Shown in pieces: positions 15,600-62,395 of a stretch of 64,000 nt of DNA. The notes under the pieces are model-generated. The model saw only the letters and a list, made by a program, of their open reading frames with translations, did no database searches and was not told where the DNA came from. The stretch lies in the NCBI GenBank assembly GCA_963969395.1, contig OZ017795.1, positions 3,782,001 through 3,846,000 on the forward strand, given 5' to 3'. The position numbers and the translations under genes are program-made. The DNA is from Pseudoscleropodium purum. Lineage: Eukaryota > Streptophyta > Bryopsida > Hypnales > Brachytheciaceae. Positions within the stretch are counted from its first letter, which is position 1. Every line of letters starts with the position of its first letter.

Positions 15600-16062
15600 G
15601 AGAATTTGATGACACGATTTTATGACTCACGGGTTATGCCAGTCGGTGACTTGCTTGGTAAGATATTACCGTGCGACGTTGCCCTCTGCCAGTTCGGTCC
15701 TTAAACTCTTGTGGTTGAGATAATTTCACCTTTTGCAGTGAAATTCCGTTTCATTTGTTTAAGAAAAAAATTCTTCTGGTTGCAACGTTCATAACCGCAT
15801 TCCACACTCAGATACGTTTAGGTGGAACGTACTTAACTTACTTGAGTGCCAGGAAATGCACGCCGCCATGGTTTTTTAGGTTGGTGTACGTCTTCAGCAA
15901 CACTGCTTAATTGTATTTTGGTTTCTGTTGCTGCAGTTTTGTTGCAGTCGTTCCTTTGCGAACTTGCGTTTATGAGGGTGAAGTTTGAACGAGGAGTTTG
16001 CGCGAGGAAAATTGAGGTTGAACGTTAACTCAGCTGGACCACACCGGCGGCGCACATCTTCG
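15600..16062 (+). promoter_or_regulatory. Putative promoter and 5' leader of the desaturase gene
   Basis: Composition changes from AT-rich repeat to more balanced sequence at about 15.6 kb, and the coding region begins at 16063. A small perfect palindrome (GGTAA-GATA-TTACC) lies at 15657-15670. I see no convincing TATA box and cannot place the transcription start. The frame stays open upstream of the chosen ATG without another ATG, so an upstream spliced exon cannot be excluded. Confidence 0.35.
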
Positions 16063-17472
16063 ATGGAGAAACCAATGCTGATGGAAGATACTAAGGCGGC
16101 AGCAAGTGCTGAAGCAAATCAGTCCTTGAAGCCAGGGATTTTCAGCAGGCAGTGGCGCTTGTTTACTGCACCGAAACCAAGCAAATTTTTGACGAAAATC
16201 CATGGCAAGTGGTATGACTTGACGGAATTCGAGAAACATCACCCGGGCGGACCGGTGGCGCTCGGCTTAGCTCGCGGCCGCGACGCGACGGTGTTATTCG
16301 AGAGTCACCACCCGTTCACTTCTCGCGCGGTCTTGAACGCCATTCTTGCCAAGTATGAAATCGACGCTTCCGACAGCGAGCATCTGCAGACGCTGGAGCA
16401 GCAACACGGCATCACGGAGCACGAGTTCGAATGGCCGGGTGCCTTCGGGGAGGCTTTGAAATTTCAGGTGAAGGAGTACTTTCAAGGGGAGGCCGATCGG
16501 CGGAATGTGTCGCTTTGCGAAGCCACGAAAGCGACTCCAGCCAGGTGGGCAGAGATCGCGATCATTGTCGCGCTCTTCATCGCCACATTTCCGGGTTTCT
16601 TCCGCGGCGACTGGCGATTCCTGGTGCCCTTCTCGGTCATGTCTTGGATCACCTTTGCGAACACCTTTCACGATGGAACTCATTTCGCGCTCACCTCCAA
16701 CTGGCGTATCAATGCCACAGTTCCTTACTTCTTCCCATTTTTTTCTTCCCCGTTGGTTTGGTACCATCAACACAACATCGGTCATCACAGCTACCCGAAT
16801 CTCGGCGACCGCGACCCCGACGTGCACCACCATGACTGGATGAAGCGGGAGCATCGCGATGTGAAATGGTCACCCCTGCACTATTTGCAAAGGTTCTGGG
16901 TGTACACACTGTTTCGGTGGAGCTTGGCTGTGCAGATCGGTATGGCCACCACGGCGGACCTCTGGATGCTGCAGAGCAGTTTGTACAACGATGCTGTGCC
17001 CATGATGGGCATTTCAGGCCTGCGTCGGATTGTGCACATCGTCGGACGCCTCGTGACGATGGTTGTCATTCACGCGTGGCCTTTCCTTTGCCTGGAGTCT
17101 TCCAGCAAGAGCTACGCATTTGCCCTCGTGCCTTACGCGATATTTTCCATTCTATTCATGATGAACACGCAGATCAACCATCTGCTCCCGCATACAATGT
17201 ACATCGAGGACTCAGATTGGTACAAGCACCAGGTGATTACGGCGCAGGATTTCGCAGTGGGCAGCAAGTGGGTCCATCTGTTCAGTGGGGGCTTGACTTA
17301 CCAAGTTATTCACCATTTGTTTCCTACGGTGAATCACTGTCACCTCCCGCAGCTGCAACCGATTGTTGCGCGTCTCTGCGAGAAATATGACGTTACGTAC
17401 GCTATAGCTTCCGGATATGTTGAAGCAATTACTATGCACCATGAGCATTCCAAGAGCTTGAGTTCCAGATAG
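16063..17472 (+). CDS. Cytochrome b5-fused front-end fatty acid desaturase (delta-5-like)
   Basis: Intact, intronless 469-residue frame. It probably introduces a double bond between an existing one and the carboxyl end of an acyl-lipid chain, at the ER membrane. The N-terminal part holds a cytochrome b5 domain with the haem-binding HPGG motif (about residues 60-63) and a second haem histidine in ESHHPF, so electrons are passed within the same chain. Three His boxes follow: HDGTH, HNIGHH and QVIHH; the Gln that starts the third box is diagnostic of front-end desaturases. Hydrophobic segments lie before box 1 and between boxes 2 and 3. Length and order fit the family (about 440-480 residues). 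The box sequences and spacing look more like delta-5 than delta-6 enzymes, but position specificity cannot be proven by eye. ATG 16063 has G at +4; the frame is open upstream without another ATG. GC content is far above the flanking DNA. Confidence 0.93.
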   Translation: MEKPMLMEDTKAAASAEANQSLKPGIFSRQWRLFTAPKPSKFLTKIHGKWYDLTEFEKHHPGGPVALGLARGRDATVLFESHHPFTSRAVLNAILAKYEIDASDSEHLQTLEQQHGITEHEFEWPGAFGEALKFQVKEYFQGEADRRNVSLCEATKATPARWAEIAIIVALFIATFPGFFRGDWRFLVPFSVMSWITFANTFHDGTHFALTSNWRINATVPYFFPFFSSPLVWYHQHNIGHHSYPNLGDRDPDVHHHDWMKREHRDVKWSPLHYLQRFWVYTLFRWSLAVQIGMATTADLWMLQSSLYNDAVPMMGISGLRRIVHIVGRLVTMVVIHAWPFLCLESSSKSYAFALVPYAIFSILFMMNTQINHLLPHTMYIEDSDWYKHQVITAQDFAVGSKWVHLFSGGLTYQVIHHLFPTVNHCHLPQLQPIVARLCEKYDVTYAIASGYVEAITMHHEHSKSLSSR

Positions 17473-23611: not shown

Positions 23612-23619
23612 CTTCCTAC

Positions 23620-23790
23620 CAGGGTTGACACGACGTCCGGACGTGGACGCTGTGTCCGCAGCGTCCGCTGACATTCGCGGTCCCGACGGACGTAGCGTCC
23701 GCCCTGTCCGCCCCGTCCGTCCACCCCGTCCGCCCAGACGGCCCTATTTCCCTCGACCGCCCTACCCAAACTGCCCCGCGGTCACTCCCT
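23620..23790. repeat. Left terminal and subterminal region of the large element
   Basis: Begins with the CAGGGTTGAC terminal repeat, then about 160 bp rich in GTCCGCCC, CCGTCC and GGACG words. The stretch around 'GCTGTGTCCGC' and 'TGACATTCGCGG' matches the right end of the 192-bp derivative at 39.3 kb, apart from a 9-bp difference. Confidence 0.85.
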
Positions 23791-24179
23791 TAATCTTTAA
23801 ACAATTAAATGTTAAATGAAGTGCAATGGTTCGCGATTTGTTATTAAAACAATGTCTCTTATAAGTTGAAAGATTATAAAGTTTGACCACAAGTCCATGA
23901 TAGTCTTGAAACTATGAAAAAATTCCAATTCATTTTCAAAAGGCAAACTAAAAAAATTTGTGACTTCAAATATATATATATACTATTTAAAAAATCAAGA
24001 TCAACACAGATACAAACATAATCAATATGGGCAAAATGTATTCAATTTAATGTAAAATACCATACATTGTGCACATTTGGCTAATTGCAGATATAATTTT
24101 TTTCATTCCAATTCTATATTTCTAAACTAATTTTTAATGCCTATATAACCTATTCAACTACTACTTCTGCACTACCAAT
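23791..24179. other. AT-rich 3' flank of the kinase-like gene
   Basis: No gene. Lies between the left subterminal region and the end of the minus-strand kinase-like gene; presumably its 3' untranslated and termination region. Confidence 0.4.
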
Positions 24180-25676
24180 CTAATATAAATGGCGGAAATG
24201 TTCATCTGGCATCGGCCAACGATATATATTAGAAAATCGCGTAATAACATGGGCCAAACTAGTATTTTCATCGTCAGTCTTCGAAGAAATGCGCTTCAAG
24301 TAAGCATAAAACACTTTTGCAAAGTCATGAAAGGCAAATTGTGTCGCACTAGGTGTTTTTCGTAGCAAGTTGAAATACGCCTCTGACATGTTGTTTCCAT
24401 TCATCCGCCGAGCAATTTTTCGAATGGTATACTCTTTCGACTTACGTGAATACATCGGAATGACTTCCACATCTGCACCTGCTTTATGCAAATATGCAAT
24501 ACGTGGATCCACCCACCATCTCCTCTGCAAAGTTTGTTTCATCTCATCTGCTGATGTGAATGTGTACAAAGACTTCATTGGCTGAGAAGCTAAGGTGGTC
24601 ATGCTCCAATCGCAAACTCCAATATACACACGTGACTCATCCTCTGGAAAATGCAACAAGATGTTGTCCGGAGAAAGATCATTGTGCAAATGTCCAGCAA
24701 GATGCACTGCATACATTATATGCATAAATGCCCATGTCAACCCCGTGCGCTTCTTCCGATATCTTCCTAAACGGTGAACTTTTACAACCTCCTCTTCGGT
24801 TGGATTTGTATACATCAAACGTATTTGAATGTTGTCTAGATAGTCTTTATCCATATTCAACATTTGTCGAAGAGTTCCACCATTCCACCAATACGCATAA
24901 CCTTCACATGTCGTTCCGTGCACTGTAGAAAATCGTATCACACCCGCGTGTGGAATTCGAACAGCCATTGATTCGTTTTGATGTTCTAACTTTGCAAAAT
25001 CGGGTCGAGTTTGGTGGTGAATGGATTTCTTTGTCGCAAATTCCTAATAAGGAAGTATTCCTGGACATCCTTCAATACGAACTTTTCGAATCGTTGCATA
25101 TCCACCTCTCATCGTTCTATCATCAACAGCAATCACGCGTGCTGTATCTGGAAGTGCTATGAGGTGCCGTTTGGTCCTTTCCGCTTCAGCAACTCCATCA
25201 TTGCTTTTCCACCAACCAATTGAACCAACTCGATTGTGCTTTTTGGCGAATGGAGCACATCGCTCCCTAAACAAGTCCGCTTTTAGAATCACTTCTTCAA
25301 ACTGGGCGTCATTGGATCGATATTCCTTGCCATATTTAACCAAAATGACTTTGAAATTCCACAAAGCGTCATGAACCTTGTTCTTCAAACATTTGGTGAA
25401 GTACATTTTATGCATTTCGTCATGCCACTTCGCCACATTCAATGCATCCAACAACATCTGTGTCATGTCTACCTTGAATTTAGACACGCACTCCTCTTGA
25501 TATCTGATGTACTTATTGTTTAAAGACAATGATGTTTCCGATTCATAAAATTGAACGATGTGCTCGATCATGAATTTTTTGCATTCTTCCGAAGGACTTT
25601 GGCGAGCTACTTCCAAGTTCAATGGTCCCTCTCCATGTTTAAGCTTCGCAACCTTTTTCTTCCCCTTCGGCATCAT
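24180..25676 (-). pseudogene. Protein kinase-like gene with one in-frame stop
   Basis: A single 498-codon frame, broken only by TAG at 25044-25046 (codon 211). Residues 1-180 are a basic, otherwise unrecognised N-terminal region (PKGKKKVAK near the start). From about 187 the kinase fold can be followed: Gly-rich loop RGGYATIRKV (about 190-199), a Lys pair in EFATKKS just after the stop, the catalytic loop HNDLSPDN (about 331-338) with Asp333 and Asn338, and CDWS (about 355-358) where most kinases have DFG. The catalytic Asp and both metal-site residues are present, so the ancestor could have been active; DWS in place of DFG is unusual. The C-terminal lobe is hard to align. ATG 25676 lies 193 bp from the nearest GC repeat. 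It may be cargo or a core function of the mobile element. The kinase call rests on the loop motifs alone. Confidence 0.72.
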
Positions 25677-25868
25677 GACAAATGAAATTGATATAGATCA
25701 AATTTTTTAATTTGAAATTGAATTCACGGGCAAGTGTCCAAAAAATTGGCAACAAGGGGGCCCCAATAAACCACTCTTGCCTTGCCTCGGAAAGGAGCCA
25801 ATGGAGGATGAACCACCAAGCTCTCCGCTCCACCTTGCATTCACAAGGGGCAAAGCAAAAGTGACAAT

Positions 25869-26222
25869 GCGGACGGCCCGTCCGCCCCATCGGACGGGCT
25901 GGAGGTGGCGGACGCATCGGCCGTCCGCCTCCCTGAAACCCTCGAGCCCCGTCCGCCCGATCGGACGGCCACGGGTGGACAAATCTACTGTCCGCCCGAT
26001 CCGATGGGCAGCGGCTGGCGGACGCATCAGCTGTTCACCTCCCCGAAACCCTACAGTCGCGTCCACCCGATCGGACGGCCACGGGCGGACAAATCTGGCG
26101 TCCGCCCGATCGGACAGGCTGCGGGTGGCAGACGCATCGGCCGTCTGCCTCCCCGAAACCCTCGAGCCCCGTCCGCCCGATCGGACGGGCACGGGCGGAC
26201 AAATCAAGCGTTCGCCCGATCC
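25869..26222. repeat. GC-rich 110-bp tandem repeat array, about 3.2 units
   Basis: The phrase GACGCATCGG recurs at 25911, 26021 (GACGCATCAG) and 26131, an exact 110-bp period. Each unit holds GTCCGCCC and GGACGG words, a GAAACCCT phrase and a near-palindrome CCGTCCG-CCCGAT-CGGACGG, perfect at 25949-25968 and present at about 26169-26188. The array lies 193 bp upstream of the kinase-like start codon. Long open frames across it come from repeat composition, not a gene. Confidence 0.9.
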
Positions 26223-26819
26223 AATTTATTTTTCATATTTGAAAATAGAATCTAAAGAAGAACCACTAATTGTCTAATTTGGGCATTTCTTCATACGAAT
26301 AAGAAATCATTTTAGTTTTTAGCAATCGTTGAATGAAAAATAAAAAAATTTCAAATATTCAAATAATTCAATCTTTCATAAATTAATTAGAAATACATTT
26401 ATACCATTTACGAGTTTCTAAATGTAATAAACACAGAACAATAATTTCAAAATACACACCATGCTAGTACATATTTAACCTCGAATGCTAAATTCAAAAA
26501 TAGACATAATATGGCTCTTATAAAATTACATTTCTTCTTCATATTTTTATTATTTATCAAAGTCGCTTATAGCCTTATACATCAACGCTATTATAAAATA
26601 ATACAATGATGTCTTCAACAATATGCTTGCCTACATACATACTTGGTGTACACTATTACACAACACTTTTTGAAAAAGTGAACAAAATTGTTGTTCAAAA
26701 TTGTTCTATTCATTTAAAATTTTGTACTACTTCTACCAATCTAGTGCTCTATACTTATCGTGAGAGTTAAAATGAGAAAATTGAGCAAATACATGCTCAT
26801 TATATACTTGCATGTTTTT
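26223..26819. other. AT-rich spacer inside the large element
   Basis: About 600 bp of AT-rich DNA downstream of the minus-strand zinc-binding-like gene. No gene or structured repeat recognised. Confidence 0.45.
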
Positions 26820-28083
26820 TTATTCGGAATCTGAATCGGACTCAAATTGTTGACCGCTGCCTCTTCTTTGTACTCCAATGAATGTACCACCTCCGTAGTT
26901 TCCGTGATATCCACTTGGTGCACCTCCTTGTCCATAATTTGAACCTCCAAAAGTGGGAGGAGGAACCGGAATAGTAGGCTCTGATCCTCTTTCATTTGAA
27001 GCTCCGTAATAAGAGGCCCCATGATGCCCGTATGAATCACTTCTAGTTGATCCCGGATAGTATTGGGCGCTTCCATGAAGAAAACAACTATACTGCGGGG
27101 TTACATGGCTTCCTCCACTACTTTCAGAGCCCACTTGAGTGGGCGTCGTATAATATGAACCAGATTCAGTAGACCTACCATAGTACGTGTTGCCATAACT
27201 ACCTGTTCCACCTAGAGAGCCAATTTCAGGGGGAGTGCCATAATGAGAACCAACTGCACTTGAACCACCATAATGCGTGGATCCATAGGCTCCTTCTTCC
27301 ACCTTCATATCTATTTTGAGGATCGTAACCAGAGTATGAACCACCTCTTCCTTGTTCAGATTCTTGCGTTCCATGTTCATGTCTGTAGGACCCACCATGC
27401 CTATCTTGTCGTCCACGATCTTGAAGGCTTCTGCATGCTGCCTCTTGCATTTGTTGTTCGAATTCAATTCGTTCTCGTTCTTCTACCCGCTCGTGCCTAA
27501 CTCCAAATGTGACAGGCGCTTGCATATCATCGTCATCATCGTCATCTGTCCACGCATCTTCAGCATCTCGTAGAACAACTGAAGGTTGTTGTAGATAACC
27601 TCGATTAGACCACTCTGGCATGCAATCGCTTGTGTCCCTCCACTGTATATCTATAATGGCATCCGTGCGCGTATAGTTCTCCACATTGCGACCTATAGCG
27701 GTACGCCAGTCCACGTCTTTGTGGAGTACAATCTCTGTCCAAACCATTGCCATAATATTATAATTCATTATATTTGGTTTGGCGCTTTTAATGCCAAGAA
27801 CTCGATGCACTTGTGTGTATCGTTGTTTGAAGTGCTCACTTTGGCACGTAGACATTTGTCCTTCCCAACGTGGCGCTTGGTACTCTATACGTTCACGTCG
27901 CCAAAGTTTTTGAATGTGAGTCATTTTCACATACTTCTTGCACATTGAGCAATCCCACACTCTTGTTGGTTCTTCTTCCCATCCCGGTTCATCCACGCAC
28001 AATGGATCGGCTCAAACATCCCAATCGAACAATTGGGGTCTTCCCTTTCGACTACTTTTTTTGGGTGTTCTATCTTTCGACAT
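26820..28083 (-). pseudogene. Zinc-binding-like protein with Gly/Tyr/Ser-rich tail; one stop and one frameshift
   Basis: ATG at 28083 opens a frame with a basic start (SKDRTPKKSSRKGR), a TGA at codon 24 (28012-28014), then a Cys/His domain: W-D-C-x2-C, KMTHIQKLW and C-x3-H. This domain aligns with the start of the plus-strand gene at 31387 (same order: C-x-x-Y-[VI]-K-M-x-H-I-x-K-L-W, then C-x3-HF, then a V/I-DW-T end), so the two are paralogues. An Asp-run linker and an Arg/Gln/Glu-rich stretch follow. Near 27310 the frame shifts by one base in a Gly/Glu-rich stretch and continues as a low-complexity tail rich in Gly, Ser, Tyr and Thr, ending SDSDSE at 26820. Such tails are common in RNA-binding or condensate-forming proteins, but the function here is unknown. 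The Cys/His part recalls a BED-type finger only loosely. Confidence 0.65.
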
Positions 28084-28251
28084 GATGAAGCCGAAGCAAA
28101 GAGAATGAAACAATTAGAAAGCTTAAGAACCAAAATTTTGATTTAATTAATTAATTAAAATTTTACAAGCGTGAACTTTGTGAAAATTTGTAACAATGCC
28201 ACAACAATCGTTCACTCAAAGCGGAAGGGGCGCGTAGAGCTTCCAATGCAT

Positions 28252-28490
28252 TGGTCCGCCTACTCCAAAAGAGAACGATTGTTCGGAATGAGCCGTCCGC
28301 CTCCCCATATATATATGCGGACGCCTCGAGGCGGACGTCCAGATCATGCGGACCACATCAGTCCGCGTGTCAATCGGACGGCCGTAACCGGGCGGACAGG
28401 TATCGGGGCGGACAGGGCGGACGGGTATCGTGGCGGACGGGCGGACAAGGCAGACGCCGGATCGGGTGGACAGGGCGGACGGCTCATCTT
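28252..28490. promoter_or_regulatory. GC-rich GGACGG array upstream of the zinc-binding-like gene
   Basis: Dense GCGGACGG, GGGCGGACAG and CCGTCCGCC words with a short TATATATAT run at about 28306-28315. The dense part starts 209 bp upstream of the minus-strand start codon at 28083. It matches the spacing of the other two arrays in the element, so it is likely a promoter-proximal or protein-binding module. An AAACCCTAAA telo-box-like word follows at about 28491. Confidence 0.6.
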
Positions 28491-28554
28491 AAACCCTAAA
28501 CCTAATGAAACAAATTGTTTTTTTTTTCAAAATCTCACAGTATAGATGTTTAAC

Positions 28555-28760
28555 CCGTAAAGTTCTTTTCACTAAAAACACTTCAAAACTGCCAATAGTA
28601 GTGCAAATATCAAGTCTTAGAAGAAAAATACTTTGGGGCATATGTAACCGTAGGATCTTGTAGTAAATTAGTTGGAAAAAATGTGGAAAAATTTTTAGAC
28701 AAATCCATCATTTGGATTGTAAGATATTAGATATTGAATGTTTCATTTACGGGGGCTACT
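28555..28760 (+). repeat. Copy of dispersed AT-rich repeat family inside the large element
   Basis: Aligns in the same orientation with about 19000-19190: 'TTCACTAAAAACACTTCAAAA', 'GTAACCGTAGGATCTTGTAGTAAA' and 'GGATTGTAAGATATTA' match the corresponding phrases there. The element therefore acquired, or inserted together with, this repeat. Confidence 0.7.
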
Positions 28761-28958
28761 CAATTATGTCTATTAATGAACAATTGGTAGGCTAACAAAC
28801 CTAACTTAGCATGTATTTTAATATTTGTTGCAATTGTTTTAGGAATATTATAACATAACACGATTATAATATTCTTATAAATGATATAGTACTAAATCAT
28901 TTCAAAATCAACAACATTCGAACATAATCTGTCAATCTTGTCTTTCATACTCGTTTAA

Positions 28959-28960
<2 letters not shown>

Positions 28961-28995
<35 letters not shown>
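28961..28995. repeat. (AT)n microsatellite
   Basis: About 17 uninterrupted AT units in the core of the large element. Confidence 0.95.
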
Positions 28996-28999
<4 letters not shown>

Positions 29000-30740
29000 C
29001 ATAAAATATATTAGATAAATCAACATGAACAAATCAATGATTATATATTTCATAGATCTATTCTTCATCAATCAAATAACAGTGCATGTGCAAATATAGA
29101 CAAAAATGGTTTCTCCATTTGTTCCCAAAAAATAGATAAACAAATAGAGAAAGATATGAAGTGAATGTTATTTGGAGAATTGGAACGAAAGAAATTGAAG
29201 TACTCAATTGCATTTTATTAAATTGGAAAATTGCATGTGGATGGCATGAATTAATCTTCATAGATGCTAAACTCATACAAGTTGCATTTCAACATTTATG
29301 ATTTATGCAATTGATTGAATTGAAAGCTCTTGTAATTACATTTTCAAATTTTCGATTCAATCATTCAAATTTGCAAGAGTGATTTATGATAGATTTATAA
29401 CTTTAAATGTGAAAGCATTCAATGCCTTTATGCGTTTGTTCATCAATATATTAATTTTAGATAAATAATATATATTTTTTATAACATATGCATAAACCAT
29501 TACATTAAAAAAAACAAAAAACTAAGAGCCAAGCCAAATAGGCTAGTCAAATGAAGAGAACAAGAGAATAAGAGCCCTACGAGACAGAAAAAAAAGGAAA
29601 AAAAAAGAAAATATCAAAAGGATTCAAAGGAAGGAGCAAGATGCATTCTTGCAAGACCGTAGAATACATAATGATTTCAAAATCCAAACACAAATATATT
29701 TTCTATTTCAATGAGAGTCAAAAATGAACTACCTTGCTCTCAAAAATTGTACAATGTACACGTTATACAAAATGAACATATAATAGAAAGAGTAGAAGAC
29801 ATCGTTTATCATGATTGAAAACTGAAATGATTTTTTTTTCTATGTAGAATATTTTATGAAATGTAACAATGTATTTAATTATCATAGTAATTGGTAGAAA
29901 TCTTTGTGCAATATATAGAAATATTTCATTCATGTGGAGTTTTTTCATTTATTTAGGATTAAAATTGAAGTATTATACTCTACAAAGTACAAACCAAAAA
30001 CAATACCATATACCTAAGTTCAAAAGTTTGCAATTGTTTCGTGAATTCATTTTGAAAACTCAAACAAAGAAATATTTTATAATCAATATCTTGTTCATTT
30101 GAATCATTTAAAAAATCGAATTCCGAATTCAATTCCTATTTATAATAGAAATTATATTTGTCAATTTTTTAGATCTTTAAACAATGAACCCTCTTTTTTA
30201 AAATTAATATTTAAAAACATCTGAAATAAGAATATTGGAATTACCCTTCAAAATAAATATAGCACATGTATAAGTGTATAATGTATTCTACTCCACCAAC
30301 TCAAGTAATGAATTTTTCTATGTTTTTTAAGTAAAAATATAGCCATACATGATTTGAAAGTTAAAATATTGATTCTTTTTCTTTGTTTTCAAATCTAATC
30401 AAAATTTCATTAAAAAATATGAAAGACTCGATGTTCATTTGAAGATCGTGATGCACTTTTAATGAGAAATCACAACCTTTCATTAAATATCATGAGGTTG
30501 AAATCCATTAAACTGTTATTCTAATTATGTATTGGGGCCTTTTTTTAAAATTTCATTTGCTTACAATGAAAATGGAATTGATTATTTCTGCAAAACATTT
30601 GATTTCCTAATGAACTTTGAAAAAATCCCCACCATCTTCTCAAAACCTATTTAGAGGAATAATATCAGTAAATAATTCAAACATATTCAACTTAACCACA
30701 TTCCCCTCATTCATAAAACAATTTAAGGGAGAAAAGAAAA

Positions 30741-30775
30741 GGTTTAGGGTAATTAGGGTATAGGGTTTAGGGTTT
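30741..30775 (+). repeat. Short telomere-like TTTAGGG cluster
   Basis: GGTTTAGGGT, AATTAGGGTA and TAGGGTTTAGGGTTTA occur in a row: two intact plant-type TTTAGGG units plus degenerate ones. Single telo-box words are common in plant promoters, so this need not be telomere-derived. Confidence 0.7.
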
Positions 30776-30904
30776 ACATTTAAAAAAAATAAAAAATGAT
30801 AAATCAATTACATTGATCCTCATTTAGCAGTGATTATTAGGCTGTTTGATTTTTGAAATGTTACTGCTCTTTTTGAATAATAATGGCCTCATAGGATGCA
30901 CCAA

Positions 30905-31168
30905 TGGACAGCTAGGCGGACGCCATCGGCGGTCAGTGTTTAAGTGGGCGGTCGGCGTGTCCAAAGCGAGGACGGCGTTGGAAGGCGGACAGTACGGACA
31001 GTCTGGGCGGACACGCCGGTCAGACGGGGCGGTCGGACGGGGGATGGGCGGACGGGGCGATGGGCGGACGGCGCGTCCGCTGTCGAAGCGAACGTTGTCG
31101 GTCCGCGCGGTGGACACGAGGTTCGGGGCCGCTTCGCGCGGTCCGGGGCAGGTCCGGCGGCGGACGGC
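30905..31168. promoter_or_regulatory. GC-rich GGACGG array upstream of the RING-H2-like gene
   Basis: Dense GGCGGACGGGGCG, GCGGACAG and GGTCCG words, ending about 219 bp upstream of the start codon at 31387. A TATAAG follows at once (31169-31174) and could be the TATA element. Same placement as the arrays before the other two genes of the element. Confidence 0.6.
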
Positions 31169-31386
31169 TATAAGGGTGGAGTGACTTTCATTTCTTCTTA
31201 CTTCAATTCTCCTTCGGTGCCAAGTTGGATGTGCTACTATTGCTTTATGCGCTAGTTGCTCCTACGGGGTGGAGAGTTGGGGTCCTCTATCTTGTGTTAC
31301 TGTGTTGCGGTTGATGCCATCACTTTTGACTATTACGTGAGATTTTTTTATTCACTTCAATTGGTTATTGAATCCAATTGACAATC

Positions 31387-34300
31387 ATGAACGGCGAAGG
31401 TGATCGAAATATGGATGGGGTGACTCCGGGAAGCGAAGCCAGGAAAAAGAGCAAAGTAAAGGGGGCTACGCATGACCTTCGGCTTGACATTTTAAATGAC
31501 CTTACAATTAAAGCAGAGAGCGGGTGAGAAGATGAAGATGCGGAGTATTGGACATAAAAAATGTGCAGGACCTATATTAAAATGTACCACATTGACAAGT
31601 TGTGGCCTCAGGAGTCGCACAAGAGTCATACACGGGATTTTTGTTGTAAACCATGGACTTGCAACAACAAACATTTTGTCCATCGATCTGAGGAGGTGTG
31701 GCGTGTTCTATTCGGAAATAAGCGCAGAAGTAAAGGCTATATTAATTATAGCGTGGCGTGTATGGTTTACGTGGAACTTATATTAGAGCACAAGATCGAT
31801 TGGAGCACGTTTCCGACGACAACAGCTTGCCCACTTCTACTTGAAGCCAATCAAAAGGACATTCCCGACTTGTACAATTCAGAGGGAGAAACAGAAAAAG
31901 TATTAAAAAATACTATTGAGGTGAAAGCGGATGGTGTGAAAAAAGTCTCAAATGTTGAAGAATTACGGTCTGTACAATCTCCAACAAAAGCAATCAATGA
32001 AAGCTCTTCGAAAAATGTGGGGAAAGATGTGGAGAAAGATGTGATGAAAGATGTAGAAGCGCAGGAGGGTGAAGTCTTTTCCACAGCTCCAACGCGTTTG
32101 ACCTTTACACCAAATGTTGCGGCACAAACGCAAACAGAGTTTGTAAACAAAGGCAAGGTTTGTACGGAACGCGGGGAAACTTCAAAAAGTAAAGTAGACG
32201 AAGTCTTGGCGGAGAAAGTAGCAAAGGCTAATGCTACAATTGATAGTTTGATAGCCAATAATTGTTTTGATAGTTTGGTCTACAAATCTCCACCTGTACA
32301 TCAAGGCGTTGAATCTAGTCCAATGTTAAGTTTAGAAGACAAAGTACATACGCCTCGTGAACAAGGCGCGACGATTGATAATATATCCTCATTATGGAGT
32401 TCCGAGCGTAAAAGGCGGGCGGAGGAGTTTCCGTTTACAACGGCATTGCCAAGTCCTCTACATCGAATTTTGCAAGACATGTCCAATCCAAAACAATTGG
32501 AAAATCTTTTGAAGCTCTCGGTTCAGTTTGCTAACCTTCATGAAGAAATAGGCGAATCGTCTAACCCCGATGATGGTGCTACTGCTGTTCCAATGAGTCC
32601 ACTTGCAGATCCAAAGAATGTTGCACATATACTTGATACAGCTTTCAAGATGATGATGTCAGCTGAATTTTTAGCGAAAGTTGTTCCGACTTTTATGAAT
32701 TTGGCCAAGGAGTTTTCTTTCATGGCACCAGAGATGTTGAAAGCTGCTATAGCATTTCAGAATCTTACGAAGACTTTCGAATCACTTTTCGAAGAAAGAG
32801 ATGTTCACATACTACAATTGGTGAAATATGAGAAGAAAATTGCTGACCTTGGAGGAGTGGAAGCAAGGTGCAAAGTGTTGGAGTTGAAATTAAAGACTTC
32901 GAAGGGTGAAGTTGAATATTTAAATCAACAATCATCGAGGCAAATGGAGGAGTTGATGAAGATGAGTAAACGGATTGCAGAATTGCAAGGGACCTCCAAA
33001 AATCCAAGTGAGGTTGCAATCTCACCAGTGATTGTACTCGGAGACAGTCAAGAGACTTAAGACAGTGAAGATAAGCTCTTCCTTCCTTTTGATAAGGCCG
33101 AAGCAAGCGACAACCCTGCCATTATGAATGTACAAGAAAGTCACGATATGAGCATGTTAAAAGCGACACAACAACCATCAATGGAAAAACTTTCATCCGT
33201 TTACGTGAATGCGGAGACGCAAACGGAGAGTTGTGACTTTGAAGAGTTGAAGCATAAATTGGAGGAGGCAATTGAAGCAAAAAGAATCGTTGAATCCAAG
33301 TTGAATCGATTGCAATTGTGCTTGGATTTGAAGAAGTTTATGCCATCTAGCGGCTTGGAGTCTCGATGGTTAGCATGGGTACAAAGACTCTAAGACAGAC
33401 CCTCTGTAGTATCTCGAGCAATGGTAGGTCTTCAAACATTGGCAATGGAGTCGAATGAAAATTGCGATGCCATTCAAAGCTCTTTGAGTTGGTTCAAGAC
33501 TATGTTTGACCAACATCCTTCAAAGGGATATACGGAGATCACATGTTGGGGAGACATGGATGCCATGTTTGAGCGGTTAAACTACACAAAGAAGGACCAA
33601 GCTCCACCCATCAATTGGGCTTTGGAAGTAGAGGAAGGATGGGTCCCTTATAATACACTTTCAGCACACATCAATGTGAAAGACAAGCGAGTGGTGCATG
33701 CTTGTGATCCAGTATCTTCAATCTTGGATGGTTGTTATAGCCTTTGCCAAGGCCTCTTCGGACCGGAAGGTGCGGTAACCATGGGCCAATGTCGCCACAG
33801 TTTCCATGTCACTTGCATTGTGAAAGCATCACTCATTCGTTCGGTGTGTGCCAAGTGTCGTAATCCATTGAGTACTAGGTTCTACGAAATGTTTGGTATC
33901 TTGGAAGCTATGCCTCCAGGCCATGAGTACAATCGTTGGAATCTTCCTCTTGATCAAGCGCCGTACAAATTCCAAAATTATCAACATTGGGGGAAGCCAA
34001 TCCAGTAGAATGCAAATGAACAGAGGCATGATTTGTACGAGGAATCTCAGCAACCATTGGATTTGGATGTGTAGATGACTCACAATAGAAAGGTGGAATT
34101 GCGGGCTCGAGGAATCGTAGATGACGCGGCCCGTGAAATGTTTTGTCGCAACATGGGGGGACATTGGAGCTTGCAACACGAAAAGTTCTTTCGTTTTCCA
34201 GATAAAAAAGTAGAAAGAGGACCAAAAGACAGTTGGGTGGAGGTGAACCATGGAAAAGAGTTCGATGAACAGTATAAAGCATACGACCACACCCTCGTAG

Positions 34301-34797
34301 GTAGGACCCTTCTATTGTCGAAGTTGGAAGAGGCTGCAAAAGTTCGTGCTGTCTACGATACAAATGGACTAACAAGCACAGAATATTCATCTGTAGATGT
34401 GGTAGCAGCATTTGATAGGCGCATTGGCGATATTATAGGGCATTGGAAGGCTTTCCTATTGGATGGAGACTGCCTCACAGTATGGCAAGGGAAAGGAGAT
34501 GATGAAGTTGTTCAAGCGATGGTAGATCGTGTGGAGAGCAACTTGAGAACCTTGAAGGCAGACGAAGTCGATTTATCACCGAAAAGAAAACAAAAAAGTA
34601 AGCGTGAAGAGGACGATGACTTCTCTCCGGAAACCAAGAAACAATTTCATAAGGTGGATATCGAAGTTCAATCTGGAGGGCGAATAGTCCGTCCAAGTCA
34701 ACAACGGTCAACTCGTCAATCATCTGCTAAACTCCTCGGTACAGCAGATTTTCCTTTTGTTTTGGGAGAAGGTAGTGGTCCATCCAGTGGAAAGTAG
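31387..34797 (+). pseudogene. Long coiled-coil, RING-H2-like protein of the large element; six in-frame stops, no frameshift
   Basis: One continuous 1,137-codon frame from ATG 31387 to TAG 34795-34797, broken by stops at 31525 (TGA), 31555 (TAA), 33058 (TAA), 33391 (TAA), 34006 (TAG) and 34072 (TAG). The absence of any frame change over 3.4 kb argues that it was coding until recently. The N-terminus has the Cys/His domain shared with the minus-strand gene at 28083. A low-complexity region follows, then a heptad-like coiled coil (about codons 460-545). A RING-H2-like knuckle lies at about codons 783-824: C-x3-C-x14-C-x-H-x2-H-x2-C-x10-C-x2-C, ending CAKCRNPL. The first Cys pair is one residue wider than usual. 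The tail is basic with a probable nuclear signal (SPKRKQKSKR). A ubiquitin-ligase role is possible but unproven. It has no recognisable transposase motif, yet it is the longest gene in the element and the best candidate for an unknown one. Confidence 0.75.
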
Positions 34798-35095
34798 GAT
34801 TTGAGGAGAATTTTGTTTTTTAAAAACAATGGTCCTTTCATTGTTTAAAAACAAAAAAGAATGTGAAAGATTTAGATCTTAAAAAGATCGTATAGGATTC
34901 AATAGTGATATTGAAACTATGTTTGCATATATTTTGTTTATACATATATATTTATATATAAAGATGCTATATTTTCATTTGCGTATAAAAATATTTTTAT
35001 ATGTACATCTTATTTTACGTGAATGCATTCATTTTTTATTGTGTAACATTCAAATTACATAACAATATAAAATTTTCTAATGACTAATGGCAATG
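34798..35095. other. AT-rich 3' flank of the RING-H2-like gene
   Basis: No gene. Presumably the 3' untranslated region; runs up to the right subterminal GC-rich region. Confidence 0.4.
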
Positions 35096-35261
35096 CGAAG
35101 TCCGCCCCATCCGCCCTGTCCGTCCGCCCCGTCTGGTCTGTACGTCCGACCACCCCGCCCGTCCGCCTTCCGACGGCGGGAGGGACGCTGCGTCCGCTAG
35201 GGTCCGGACGTCCGGAAAACGGACGCTATTTTGGGGCGGACGTTGAGATTCGTCAACCCTG
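35096..35261. repeat. Right subterminal and terminal region of the large element
   Basis: GC-rich GTCCGCCC and CCGTCCG words ending in the terminal repeat GTCAACCCTG at 35252-35261. Read inward it matches about 80-90 bp of the left end of the 192-bp derivative at 39272: 'ACGTCCGCCCCAAAA', 'AGCGTCCCTCCC' and 'CCGTCGGAAGGCGGACGG' are shared. Confidence 0.88.
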
Positions 35262-35269
35262 CTTCCTAC

Positions 35270-39271: not shown

Positions 39272-39463
39272 CAGGGTTGACAAATTAGTACGTCCGCCCC
39301 AAAACAGCATCCGTAACCCGGACGTCTGTCCTCATGGACGCCAGCGGATGTAGCGTCCCTCCCACCGTCGGAAGGCGGACGGGGCGGACGGCATCCACAA
39401 ATGTCAGCGGACACAGCATCTGCGTCCGGACGTCCCGGACGTCTGACCGTCTTGTCAACCCTG
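39272..39463. mobile_element. 192-bp deletion derivative of the large TIR element, with 8-bp target duplication
   Basis: The ends are CAGGGTTGACAA and TTGTCAACCCTG (12-bp inverted repeat). A perfect 8-bp duplication, TATCCTGC, lies at 39264-39271 and 39464-39471. Its left half matches the right end of the 23620-35261 element read inward, and its right half matches the left end read inward. It is therefore the two ends joined with the 11-kb middle missing, inserted in the opposite orientation. It has no coding capacity and must have been moved by a transposase supplied elsewhere. Confidence 0.93.
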
Positions 39464-60239: not shown

Positions 60240-61063
60240 CAATTGACTATTATTTTTTGTTTGTTGTGGTCATAGAGGCGGTATGCTTTGGATTCATCAT
60301 CGAGTCCAAGAAAGATACAGGTTTGGATTTTGCTACCTAGCTTCTTCCGATACTCCTTTGGAATATGTACGTGAGCGATACAACCAAAGATTTTTAGGTT
60401 TGAGACATCGGGAATCATACCTGAGTATTTGGCTTGCGGTGTCTCTTCTGAGTTTGTGCGAGTAGGGCTGAGATTTACCAGATAAGTGGCATGCAAGACA
60501 GCTTCAATCCAAAGATAGGGTGGTAGGTTGCAATCATGGGAGATGCTCCTGACCCTTTCCATAATCATCCGATTGCATCATTTAGAGACCCCATTTTGTT
60601 GCGGTGTGCTAGCTTGTGTCAACTCATGTTGAATTCCATCTTCATGGAAGAAAGAATTAAAATCCTCTAAGGTATATTCCCCTCCTCGATCTGAAAGTAG
60701 GATTTGAATTCGATTTCCGGTTTCTATTTCGATTATGTTCTTGAAGATGCAGAATTTAGCTAATGTCTTGCTCTTGCATTTCATGAAGTGTATCCAACCT
60801 TTGCGAGAGTGATCATCTGTAAATACGAGAGCGTATTTGGAGCCACCTAAAGAGGTATGTTGTATTGGTTCCATCAAATCTGTGTGTATCCGTATTCCTG
60901 ACTTCAGAGCTCTGGTCTCTGAGTGGCAAGGAAAGCATTTGTGATGTTGCCGCCCTGCCATGCAACATGCACATACTGACTTGATTATACTGATGGTGGG
61001 AAGTCCTATGATGTTGGAAGTTCGTGATAGATGTTGCAGTCTAGGAAAGCTTAAGCGACCCAT
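60240..61063 (-). pseudogene. Copia GAG-pre-integrase and integrase domains
   Basis: A zinc-binding HHCC region (HRRMGR ... CACC) leads into the integrase core: HTDLMEP with the first Asp, LLSDRGGEYT with the second, and TPQQNGVSK where the family has NGVAE. The catalytic Glu is thus Lys (codon 60581-60583), followed by TGA at 60578-60580 in place of the family's Arg. The C-terminal part continues in frame to VN at 60240 (SPTRTNSEETP, KIFGCIAHVHIPKEYRKKL). Confidence 0.9.
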
Positions 61064-61399
61064 GCGTCGGTGTCAGAGTGTTGAAAGGCTCATACTTTCT
61101 GCAAATAATGTCGTAAGATAATTACCAAAGTAATATAGCCCATTTGATGGATCCCTTCTTCTTGATTCTATAATATTGCCATCTAGATTTGATATCGCAC
61201 ATTTCCAGTTTAGGAAAATAATTTTCTATCCTAAGTCAACTAGTGCTCCTATTGATATCAAGTTCTTTCTCATGCTAGTTACATACTTAACAGATTTCAG
61301 CTTTATTGAGCCATTCTCAGTGTTTACAGTGGCTAAACTGGAGCCTTTTACTATATGCAACTCTCCTCTGCCAAACTTAATCTCACTGATCTCTACTCC

Positions 61400-61594
61400 T
61401 AAAGTGTTGGGTGGATGATCTAGTTTCTAGTAATCTGAAGCTATGTGGCCTAACGCCCTACTATCCAAATACCAGGGGCCATTTCCCCAATGGTAGTAAG
61501 GGTCATAACTCTCTAACTAATCATCGAAGATCTCTACAGAGTTATCATAGCCTGTAGACTTTGCAGATTCAAAGTTGGGATATACCTAAGGGTT
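61400..61594 (-). pseudogene. Copia protease region
   Basis: WYLDSRALGHI marks the aspartic protease active site (family W-x-LDSGAS-HI). The catalytic triad DSG reads DSR (61457-61465), a Gly-to-Arg change explained by G-to-A. A stop follows shortly after. Confidence 0.8.
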
Positions 61595-62395
61595 TTATAG
61601 CATCCTACAATCTCTGGCAAAGTGACCAAGTTTGTGACAGTTAAAGCATACTGGTGGTGGTCGTGGTGCGCTATATGGTGTGCGACTTGGGAAGCCACAT
61701 CCTCTCACTGCCCAATGTCTTCCTCTTCCGCAGATGGTGGATTGACGTTGTAAACTTGTAGCTAGAGCTTCGTCTTCTCTGAGTGTCTGACTCCAATGCT
61801 TCCATCGATAGGACTCCGACAGAGGGTTTACACTCAATTTTTCAAATGACATGCTAGGGTTCAGATGCATGAGCATTTGGATCATGCTTTCGAATGAGCG
61901 AGGTAACGCATTCATTACCATCTGATTGATGTTGCAGTTCGTTAGTTTTTCTCCCATACTATTCAATCGATTCTTCAACTCACGTGCTTTCTTCAAGTAT
62001 TCTTCAATTGAATCTCCTTTGTTCATTCTGAGAGACTGGAGTTATCCTATGAGAGTCAAAATCTGGGATTGATCTCCTAAATTGAACTACTCCTTGAGAA
62101 CCTTCCATGCTAGGGTTGGATCTAAATGTTCTGCTATTAGATCGACAAGGTCATTAGAGACTGACATCATTAGCAATCGATACGCTAATGCTTTCTTCCT
62201 ATTCAACTTAGTTTCTATCAATGTTTCTCCGTCTACTGTAGTTGGAAAAATGGTAGGATTTTGCTCACTTTCTGTAACCGTCCACTGTCCCTCTCTTCTT
62301 AGTACCGCATGCATCTTAAGGGCCCACACATAGTAGTTGCATGACCCTCTCAATTTGTCACTGTCTCTAAGCATTATGCTGGATGATTCAGCCAT
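61595..62395 (-). pseudogene. Copia gag
   Basis: Starts MAESSSIMLRDSDKLRG with the typical gag phrase NYYVWALKMHAVL. A stop-containing gap at about 62030-62086 is followed by EYLKKARELKNRL. It ends in a CCHC knuckle, CFNCHKLGHFARDC. Same frame throughout, and in frame with pol. Confidence 0.92.

Follow-up and report, generated by a model that had tools for sequence, protein, structure and literature searches.

We analysed a 64,000-nucleotide stretch of the genome of the moss Pseudoscleropodium purum (the window; C1:3782001-3846000), which contains at positions 23620-35261 an 11,642-bp element with terminal inverted repeats (TIRs) and three internal genes, g1, g2 and g3 (Table 1). Coordinates without a contig refer to the window, and the genome searched comprised 313 Mb in 52 contigs. 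The two ends match perfectly over 10 bp; inward of this short TIR they have GTCCG-rich sequence in common and no long TIR. The sequence CAGGGTTGAC, present at both ends of the window copy, agrees with the consensus start of hAT TIRs, (T/C)A(A/G)NG, given in a 2018 survey (PMC6027215). An 8-bp target-site duplication, the length typical of hAT elements, was found in 10 of the 14 copies that we read end to end. On the + strand of the window each end 10-mer has just one further occurrence, and this other pair belongs to a 192-bp miniature element (39272-39463) with an identical TIR and a perfect 8-bp duplication, TATCCTGC; comparable miniatures of 289 and 347 bp lie within or beside other copies fetched from the genome.

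The left CTTCCTAC sits in a short CTTCCTA tandem repeat and is for that reason weak evidence when taken alone, a weakness offset by the different perfect 8-bp duplications found at the same boundaries in other copies. The element is flanked by repeated DNA, and most matches in a genome search with the joined flanks covered one flank (best 40 of 1,537 candidates). At L039 (C1:3861449-3861767), about 44 kb past the right end, both flanks lie in order around a single ACTTCCTAC with no element, at identities of 81% (160 columns) and 83% (64 columns) and with 96 bp between the two blocks versus 27 bp of the query. The other flank-related place fetched, L040, has oppositely oriented flanks and is uninformative on the empty site. 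The initial annotation had described an element with hAT-like TIRs, flanked by a perfect 8-bp duplication and containing three genes. Its ends and duplications proved exact and its genes could be located; the boundaries of the other copies read end to end coincide with 23620 and 35261, eight of the ten duplications are perfect, and L039 lacks the element; neither observation refutes the annotation. The element is confirmed as a real TIR unit, more than a product of chance.

The leftmost gene, g1, encodes a protein with a protein-kinase fold. Its window piece matched Pfam Pkinase below the cut-off, and its relatives (58 homologues) show almost no variation in HND(L/I)SPDN or in the DW of the kinase DWG. 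An AlphaFold model of one of these, P0001, with a mean predicted local distance difference test score (pLDDT) of 83.8, retrieved kinases in Foldseek at probability 1.00; template modelling scores over the whole model were 0.3-0.4, low partly because the first ~170 residues, helical and without a Pfam family, are extra. Named plant relatives come from the moss Ceratodon purpureus only, at 47% along the full length for P0022 and 41% for P0037; the kinase genes of this moss include M758_3G001500 and KC19_VG055000. Closer relatives (up to 72%) belong to environmental records or to a bacterial metagenome-assembled genome (MAG). P0002 and P0061, relatives of the element kinase and of g3 filed under the 'Bacilli bacterium' MAG IMZ40, probably reflect eukaryotic contamination of that MAG. 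A viral or prokaryotic origin of the kinase was considered and rejected, as none of the pattern matches in viral contigs (20) or genome contigs (19) was related to it.

The products of g2 and g3 begin with homologous domains (hhalign probability 99.7%, E 2e-25). This common domain is new, and neither protein has a Pfam family above cut-off. The 12 homologues of g2 mostly display a C-x2-C...H...C...H pattern, followed by a Gly/Tyr/Ser-rich tail and an acidic end. A model of the g2 domain (mean pLDDT 43.8, ~75 at residues 61-150) yielded no match in the PDB at E <= 0.001. Four homologues of g3 were found, among them P0059, 94% identical. The RING-H2 region of the g3 window piece matched zf-RING_11 best (E 8.4e-5), below the Pfam cut-off as also in P0059, and aligned with a chain of RNF24 at E 0.00048. 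P0062, a g3 relative found in a different record, has 50-56% identity with the genome copies listed along its residues 2-226 and 22-28% beyond, which singles out the domain common to g2 and g3 as the conserved part; a search with this query revealed no divergent g3 subfamily among the matches listed (best 93 of 1335 candidates). Stop-free frames exist in other copies for g1 (505 codons), g2 (430 codons, e.g. C45:10918574) and g3 (1137 codons, at C40:40409000). The labels given to the genes at the outset (kinase-like; zinc-binding-like with a Gly/Tyr/Ser tail; coiled-coil/RING-H2-like) stand, as does the reported absence of a hAT transposase domain. None of eight pieces of g1-g3 from the window copy matched a transposase family, so this copy can only be a non-autonomous hAT member.

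Five GC-rich arrays punctuate the element, one at each end and one ahead of each gene (65-70% GC versus 36.7% elsewhere in the element). With bounds set by eye, they span 1,206 bp in total and contain 21 of the 24 GTCCGCCC words of the window.

Table 1. Features of the element in window coordinates.
Feature	Positions	Strand	Basis or remark
Left target-site duplication, CTTCCTAC	23612..23619	none	exact match; element-free paralogue L039
Left end: 10-bp TIR CAGGGTTGAC (23620-23629) and subterminal GTCCG-rich array, GC 0.70	23620..23790	+	array bounds by eye
g1: 498 codons, protein-kinase fold; a single in-frame stop, at codon 211	24180..25676	-	
GTCCGCCC array preceding g1; g2 module bounded on the left at ~26033	25860..26230		BLAST block ends
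g2: zinc-binding-like N-terminal domain, Gly/Tyr/Ser-rich tail, acidic DSDSE end; one stop (codon 24) and a frameshift	26820..28083	-	
N-terminal g2 domain (homologue in g3)	27625..28083	-	hhalign
GTCCGCCC array preceding g2; g2 module bounded on the right at ~28501	28280..28490		BLAST block ends
GTCCGCCC array upstream of g3; A/B divergence point inside, ~31003	30900..31185		BLAST block ends
g3: 1136 codons; N-terminal domain as in g2, coiled-coil-like middle, RING-H2, C-terminal tail; six stops, no frameshift	31387..34797	+	
N-terminal domain of g3, common with g2	31387..31890	+	hhalign
RING-H2 region of g3	33742..33861	+	Tyr in window copy at first metal-binding Cys of P0059
Right end: subterminal GTCCG array and TIR GTCAACCCTG (35252-35261); right boundary of g3/transposase module ~35153	35095..35261	+	
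Right target-site duplication, CTTCCTAC	35262..35269	none	exact match

When the leftmost 151 bp were searched against the genome, all 40 candidates scored (best 40 of 2,367) matched at 85-100% identity. Fourteen elements were read end to end, namely the window copy, ten others, and C40:40399140, C40:41490552 and C47:1416807; they were chosen mainly by their left end, and the use of similarity to the window copy as a criterion favours elements of its own type. Perfect 8-bp duplications flank the window copy (CTTCCTAC), C41:2776008 (ACTATAAG), C46:3114524 (TCCAATTG), C40:38481242 (ATGAAATT), C1:32091886 (ACCCCTAT), C45:13922833 (CTCAAATT), C47:1416807 (CAAGATGG) and C40:41490552 (AATAAAAG), while those of C1:16624349 and C44:2381051 match at 7 of 8 positions.

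These copies carry two gene sets flanked by the same ends. Eight of the 14, the window copy included, contain the kinase gene, g2 and g3 (type A; 11.5-13.6 kb). Five others (C44:2381051, C45:13922833, C44:5740525, C40:41490552 and C47:1416807) have the kinase gene and, at the position of g3, a hAT transposase gene, and lack g2 (type B; 9.6-10.1 kb). Common to both types are the ends, the kinase gene and a middle of 2.5 kb. The identity of their left 190 bp to the window copy overlaps (83-94% in type A versus 87-92% in type B). No transposase was present in any type A copy read (seven examined; the eighth matches the window copy over its full length). One type A copy, C40:40399140-40410925 (L029-L030), has a stop-free g3 frame and no 8-bp duplication, and apparently adjoins or sits inside another copy, since the 175 bp beyond its right end match the middle region of the family.

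The ~1,138-codon protein of type B exceeds the curated cut-offs for two hAT domains, DUF659 (E 2.1e-21) and Dimer_Tnp_hAT (E 7.1e-9). Its N-terminus is unrelated to the g2 domain (hhalign probability 0.2%), and a sequence search of the PDB gave a sole match at E 0.73 that is no transposase. Its frame is free of stops in three of the five type B copies read, and three (C45:13922833, C40:41490552 and C47:1416807) are enclosed by perfect duplications. C47:1416807-1426810 is structurally complete, with its perfect CAAGATGG duplication and open frames of 505 codons for the kinase and 1155 codons for the transposase.

BLAST blocks between types A and B end at ~26033 and ~28501, delimiting the g2 module, and at ~31003 and ~35153, delimiting the g3/transposase module. 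All four junctions fall inside an array or within 11 bp of one, and the arrays thus seem to be both regulatory regions and sites of module exchange. The remaining copy read, C46:2483257, is a hybrid with kinase, g2 and transposase. It is probably a recombinant, because it lacks a duplication and its parts differ in affinity, the kinase grouping with that of a type A copy (support 0.89-0.92) and the middle with those of type B (0.84-0.99).

We then scored the best candidates of genome searches with protein pieces of each gene (g3 RING piece, 150 of 661; transposase, 102 of 950; g2, 146 of 1,624; kinase, 136 of 1,379), every one of which matched, including all 102 for the transposase. Pairs with g2 upstream of g3 in the right orientation and within 12 kb numbered at least 67, against 0.38 expected by chance, and 56 of the 67 were spaced by 6.0-6.7 kb. 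A further seven were spaced by 9.2-9.5 kb and not ~6.2 kb, as with a common ~3-kb insertion or a subtype. By the same distance limit, g2 lay upstream of a transposase once among the scored hits (chance, 0.26). The kinase gene was found within 16 kb upstream of g3 in at least 33 cases (26 at 9.0-9.7 kb) and upstream of the transposase in at least 21 (19 at 5.6-6.4 kb); of the 136 scored kinase matches none was linked to both and 82 were linked to neither. No same-strand pair of g3 and transposase occurred within 6 kb among the scored hits, and of four pairs of these two genes within 15 kb one was same-strand. Downstream of the 40 scored left ends, within 25 kb, lay a scored g3 in 11 cases, a scored transposase in three and neither in 26; unlinked ends and genes are expected, as just the best matches per gene were scored. 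Collectively, the division between the two gene sets is sharp throughout the genome among the scored matches.

Many copies of a given gene also formed oppositely oriented pairs, separated by less than 40 kb and mostly equal in score: three pairs for g2, six for g3 and eight for the transposase (e.g. C46:391431/405915, C1:12223022/12240927, C49:701813/733512 and C1:42078432/42084096, the last being L003/L004). They form large palindromes, which are either real inverted duplications or fold-backs of the assembly.

Judged from its reading frames, the window copy is dead, with stops in all three genes and a frameshift in g2; two of the stops in g3, at codons 558 and 669, replace a Gln of P0059. 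In an alignment of the non-coding middle of 11 copies, C-to-T (G-to-A) changes at CHG and CG sites (H, any base but G) were the commonest copy-specific changes, at 0.029-0.041 per site per copy, based on 10-13 events in each CG or CHG class. The corresponding values were 0.013-0.015 at CHH sites and, where the original base was A or T, 0.001-0.002. Such an excess is the footprint expected for methylated DNA.

Plant hAT elements are usually shorter and carry a single gene. The family described here resembles Ac/Ds-like hATs in its CAGGG-type TIR, its 8-bp duplication, the DUF659 and Dimer_Tnp_hAT domains of type B and its miniatures with the same ends, and departs from them by the addition of the kinase, g2 and g3 genes and their division over two element types. 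In the 2018 survey, the longest plant hAT consensus measures 7144 bp and comes from a green alga, no hAT was found in the moss Physcomitrella, and non-autonomous elements are typically internal deletions (PMC6027215). Type A is comparable to the dependent member of an Ac/Ds pair in lacking a transposase and having the ends of the autonomous element; unlike it, type A keeps three genes, two of which are absent from its autonomous partner. Plants also have transposons with captured genes. With these Pack-type or transduplicating elements type A has in common non-transposase genes between TIRs; its gene set is, in contrast, fixed over many copies and has homologues in other records.

The VANDAL elements of Arabidopsis, for their part, are Mutator-like, with a Mutator-type transposase and a 9-bp duplication, and encode anti-silencing proteins (VANC). 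By description, g2 and g3 can be likened to VANC, an additional element protein acting alongside dense arrays of one motif in non-coding regions; VANC21 is reported to bind arrayed YAGTATTAY (PMC5735166). That motif is unlike the one found here, and the present family has 8-bp duplications and a type B hAT transposase. The working of g2 and g3 may perhaps be VANC-like, yet the element is no VANDAL. Searches of open-licence papers turned up no hAT with a kinase gene, no two-type pair of this kind and no 11.6-kb two-type hAT family with both kinase and RING genes. The initial annotation had ranked the element as a candidate for an undescribed system: this does not apply to the mobility system, which is that of known hATs, whereas the extra genes and their split over two types appear undescribed.

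We consider it most probable (roughly 0.7) that the window holds a decayed type A copy belonging to a high-copy hAT family, in which type B would mobilize type A in trans and g2 and g3 would be element-encoded regulators. The components of this reading differ in strength, the division into two element types being shown by the copies themselves. Mobilization of type A by the type B transposase is very probable: the enzyme would recognize the common ends and, as both types have them, should move both, as in Ac/Ds. Regulation by g2 and g3 at the arrays, taken alone, is a tentative and rather doubtful proposal, suggested by their common, probably zinc-binding domain, the adjoining arrays and the RING-H2 of one of them. 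Produced from type A, both proteins would bind the GTCCGCCC arrays, and the ubiquitin-ligase-like RING and the low-complexity parts may then act on silencing, expression or transposase level, with silencing or transposase dosage as the most plausible target. The kinase, kept in both types, may act on the transposase or on the g2/g3 regulators. A bolder version, which we regard as unlikely, pictures a bipartite transposon whose types A and B would depend on each other in trans, the transposase being allotted to one and two array-binding regulators, one of them a RING ubiquitin ligase, to the other; the two would stay separate, with an occasional reshuffling through recombination at the GTCCGCCC arrays, as perhaps in the hybrid C46:2483257.

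Several observations weigh against the favoured reading. Four of the 14 copies (C40:13751325, C40:40399140, C44:5740525 and C46:2483257) lack a duplication, and a same-strand pair of g3 and transposase lies 8.9 kb apart at C43:7299112/7308041. The linkage counts are minimum values, drawn from a sample that is not random and includes a few inverted duplicates, and that of g2 with the transposase omits the hybrid C46:2483257, whose transposase fell outside the scored set. The N-terminal 229 residues of the transposase match no Pfam family, and DNA binding by the g2 domain is a guess, given its weak model and the lack of a matching solved structure. Copy-specific changes have a spectrum-corrected nonsynonymous-to-synonymous (N/S) ratio of 0.79-0.87 of neutral in all four genes. 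Changes shared between copies (N:S 41:25 in g1, 11:6 in g2, 45:16 in g3 and 12:2 in the transposase, for neutral ratios of 2.86, 3.30, 2.80 and 2.90, respectively) suggest some constraint on g1, perhaps on g2, and none on g3. The copy-based comparison is largely uninformative on selection, and the case for long-term constraint on g2 and g3 is made solely by their homologues in other records.

The closest competitor coincides with the favoured reading in all but the help given to type B. Type A could be a plain parasite of B, its kinase, g2 and g3 serving just the spread of type A itself (for instance by its own de-silencing) or remaining from a past autonomous ancestor, a possibility to which we give not quite even odds. 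It accords with the lack of a transposase in every type A copy read, yet similar abundance (661 first-look candidates for g3 versus 950 for the transposase), as well as with the absence of g2 from all five non-hybrid type B copies read, three of which have a stop-free transposase frame. Types A and B, however, have array sequence in common at their ends and middle, so that a binder of the arrays acting in trans would probably affect both. That g2, g3 and also the kinase are captured host genes, Pack-type passengers with no role in transposition, is improbable. Gene capture does occur in plant transposons and the copy-specific changes are nearly neutral, but the same spacings recur among the best 136-150 matches scored per gene (56 of 67 g2-g3 pairs at 6.0-6.7 kb, 26 of 33 kinase-g3 pairs at 9.0-9.7 kb), homologues exist in other records, and g2 is itself a relative of g3.

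Of the two alternatives left by the initial annotation, the better supported is that of a large non-autonomous element carrying genes of its own, probably regulatory ones. The other, that one of the three proteins is a new transposase, would now make the hAT transposase of the sister elements an intruder. The lack of a Pfam family above cut-off in g2 and g3 would leave room for it, but in sister elements bounded by the same ends, three of them enclosed by perfect duplications, the place of g3 is taken by the hAT transposase. Both the CAGGG terminus and the 8-bp length of the duplication are hAT-like, and g1-g3 match no transposase family. We consequently rejected g1, g2 and g3 as transposase candidates and hold this alternative to be very improbable. 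Finally, copies without a duplication and the many inverted, near-identical pairs in the assembly might hint at a chance composite or an assembly artefact, the chances of which are practically negligible in view of the order, spacing and ends repeated on different contigs and of the element-free paralogous site.

Elsewhere in the window, an unbroken 496-codon frame lies in a GC-rich island (15982-17469, + strand), which we take, by eye, to resemble a cytochrome-b5-fused fatty acid desaturase. Fragments at 60581-62041 (- strand), also recognized by eye, resemble a Copia-type gag/integrase.

The usual view of non-autonomous DNA transposons is that they are captured junk or derivatives left by deletion. 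In this family, an abundant type without a transposase keeps three genes in fixed order, along with regularly placed arrays. Kinase genes like g1, labelled 'hypothetical protein' in Ceratodon, may be transposon genes, which calls for caution by annotators. If g2 and g3 do act in trans, the family would be a transposon counterpart of a multipartite genome and would provide, in a moss, an independent, hAT-based parallel to the anti-silencing systems of Mutator elements.

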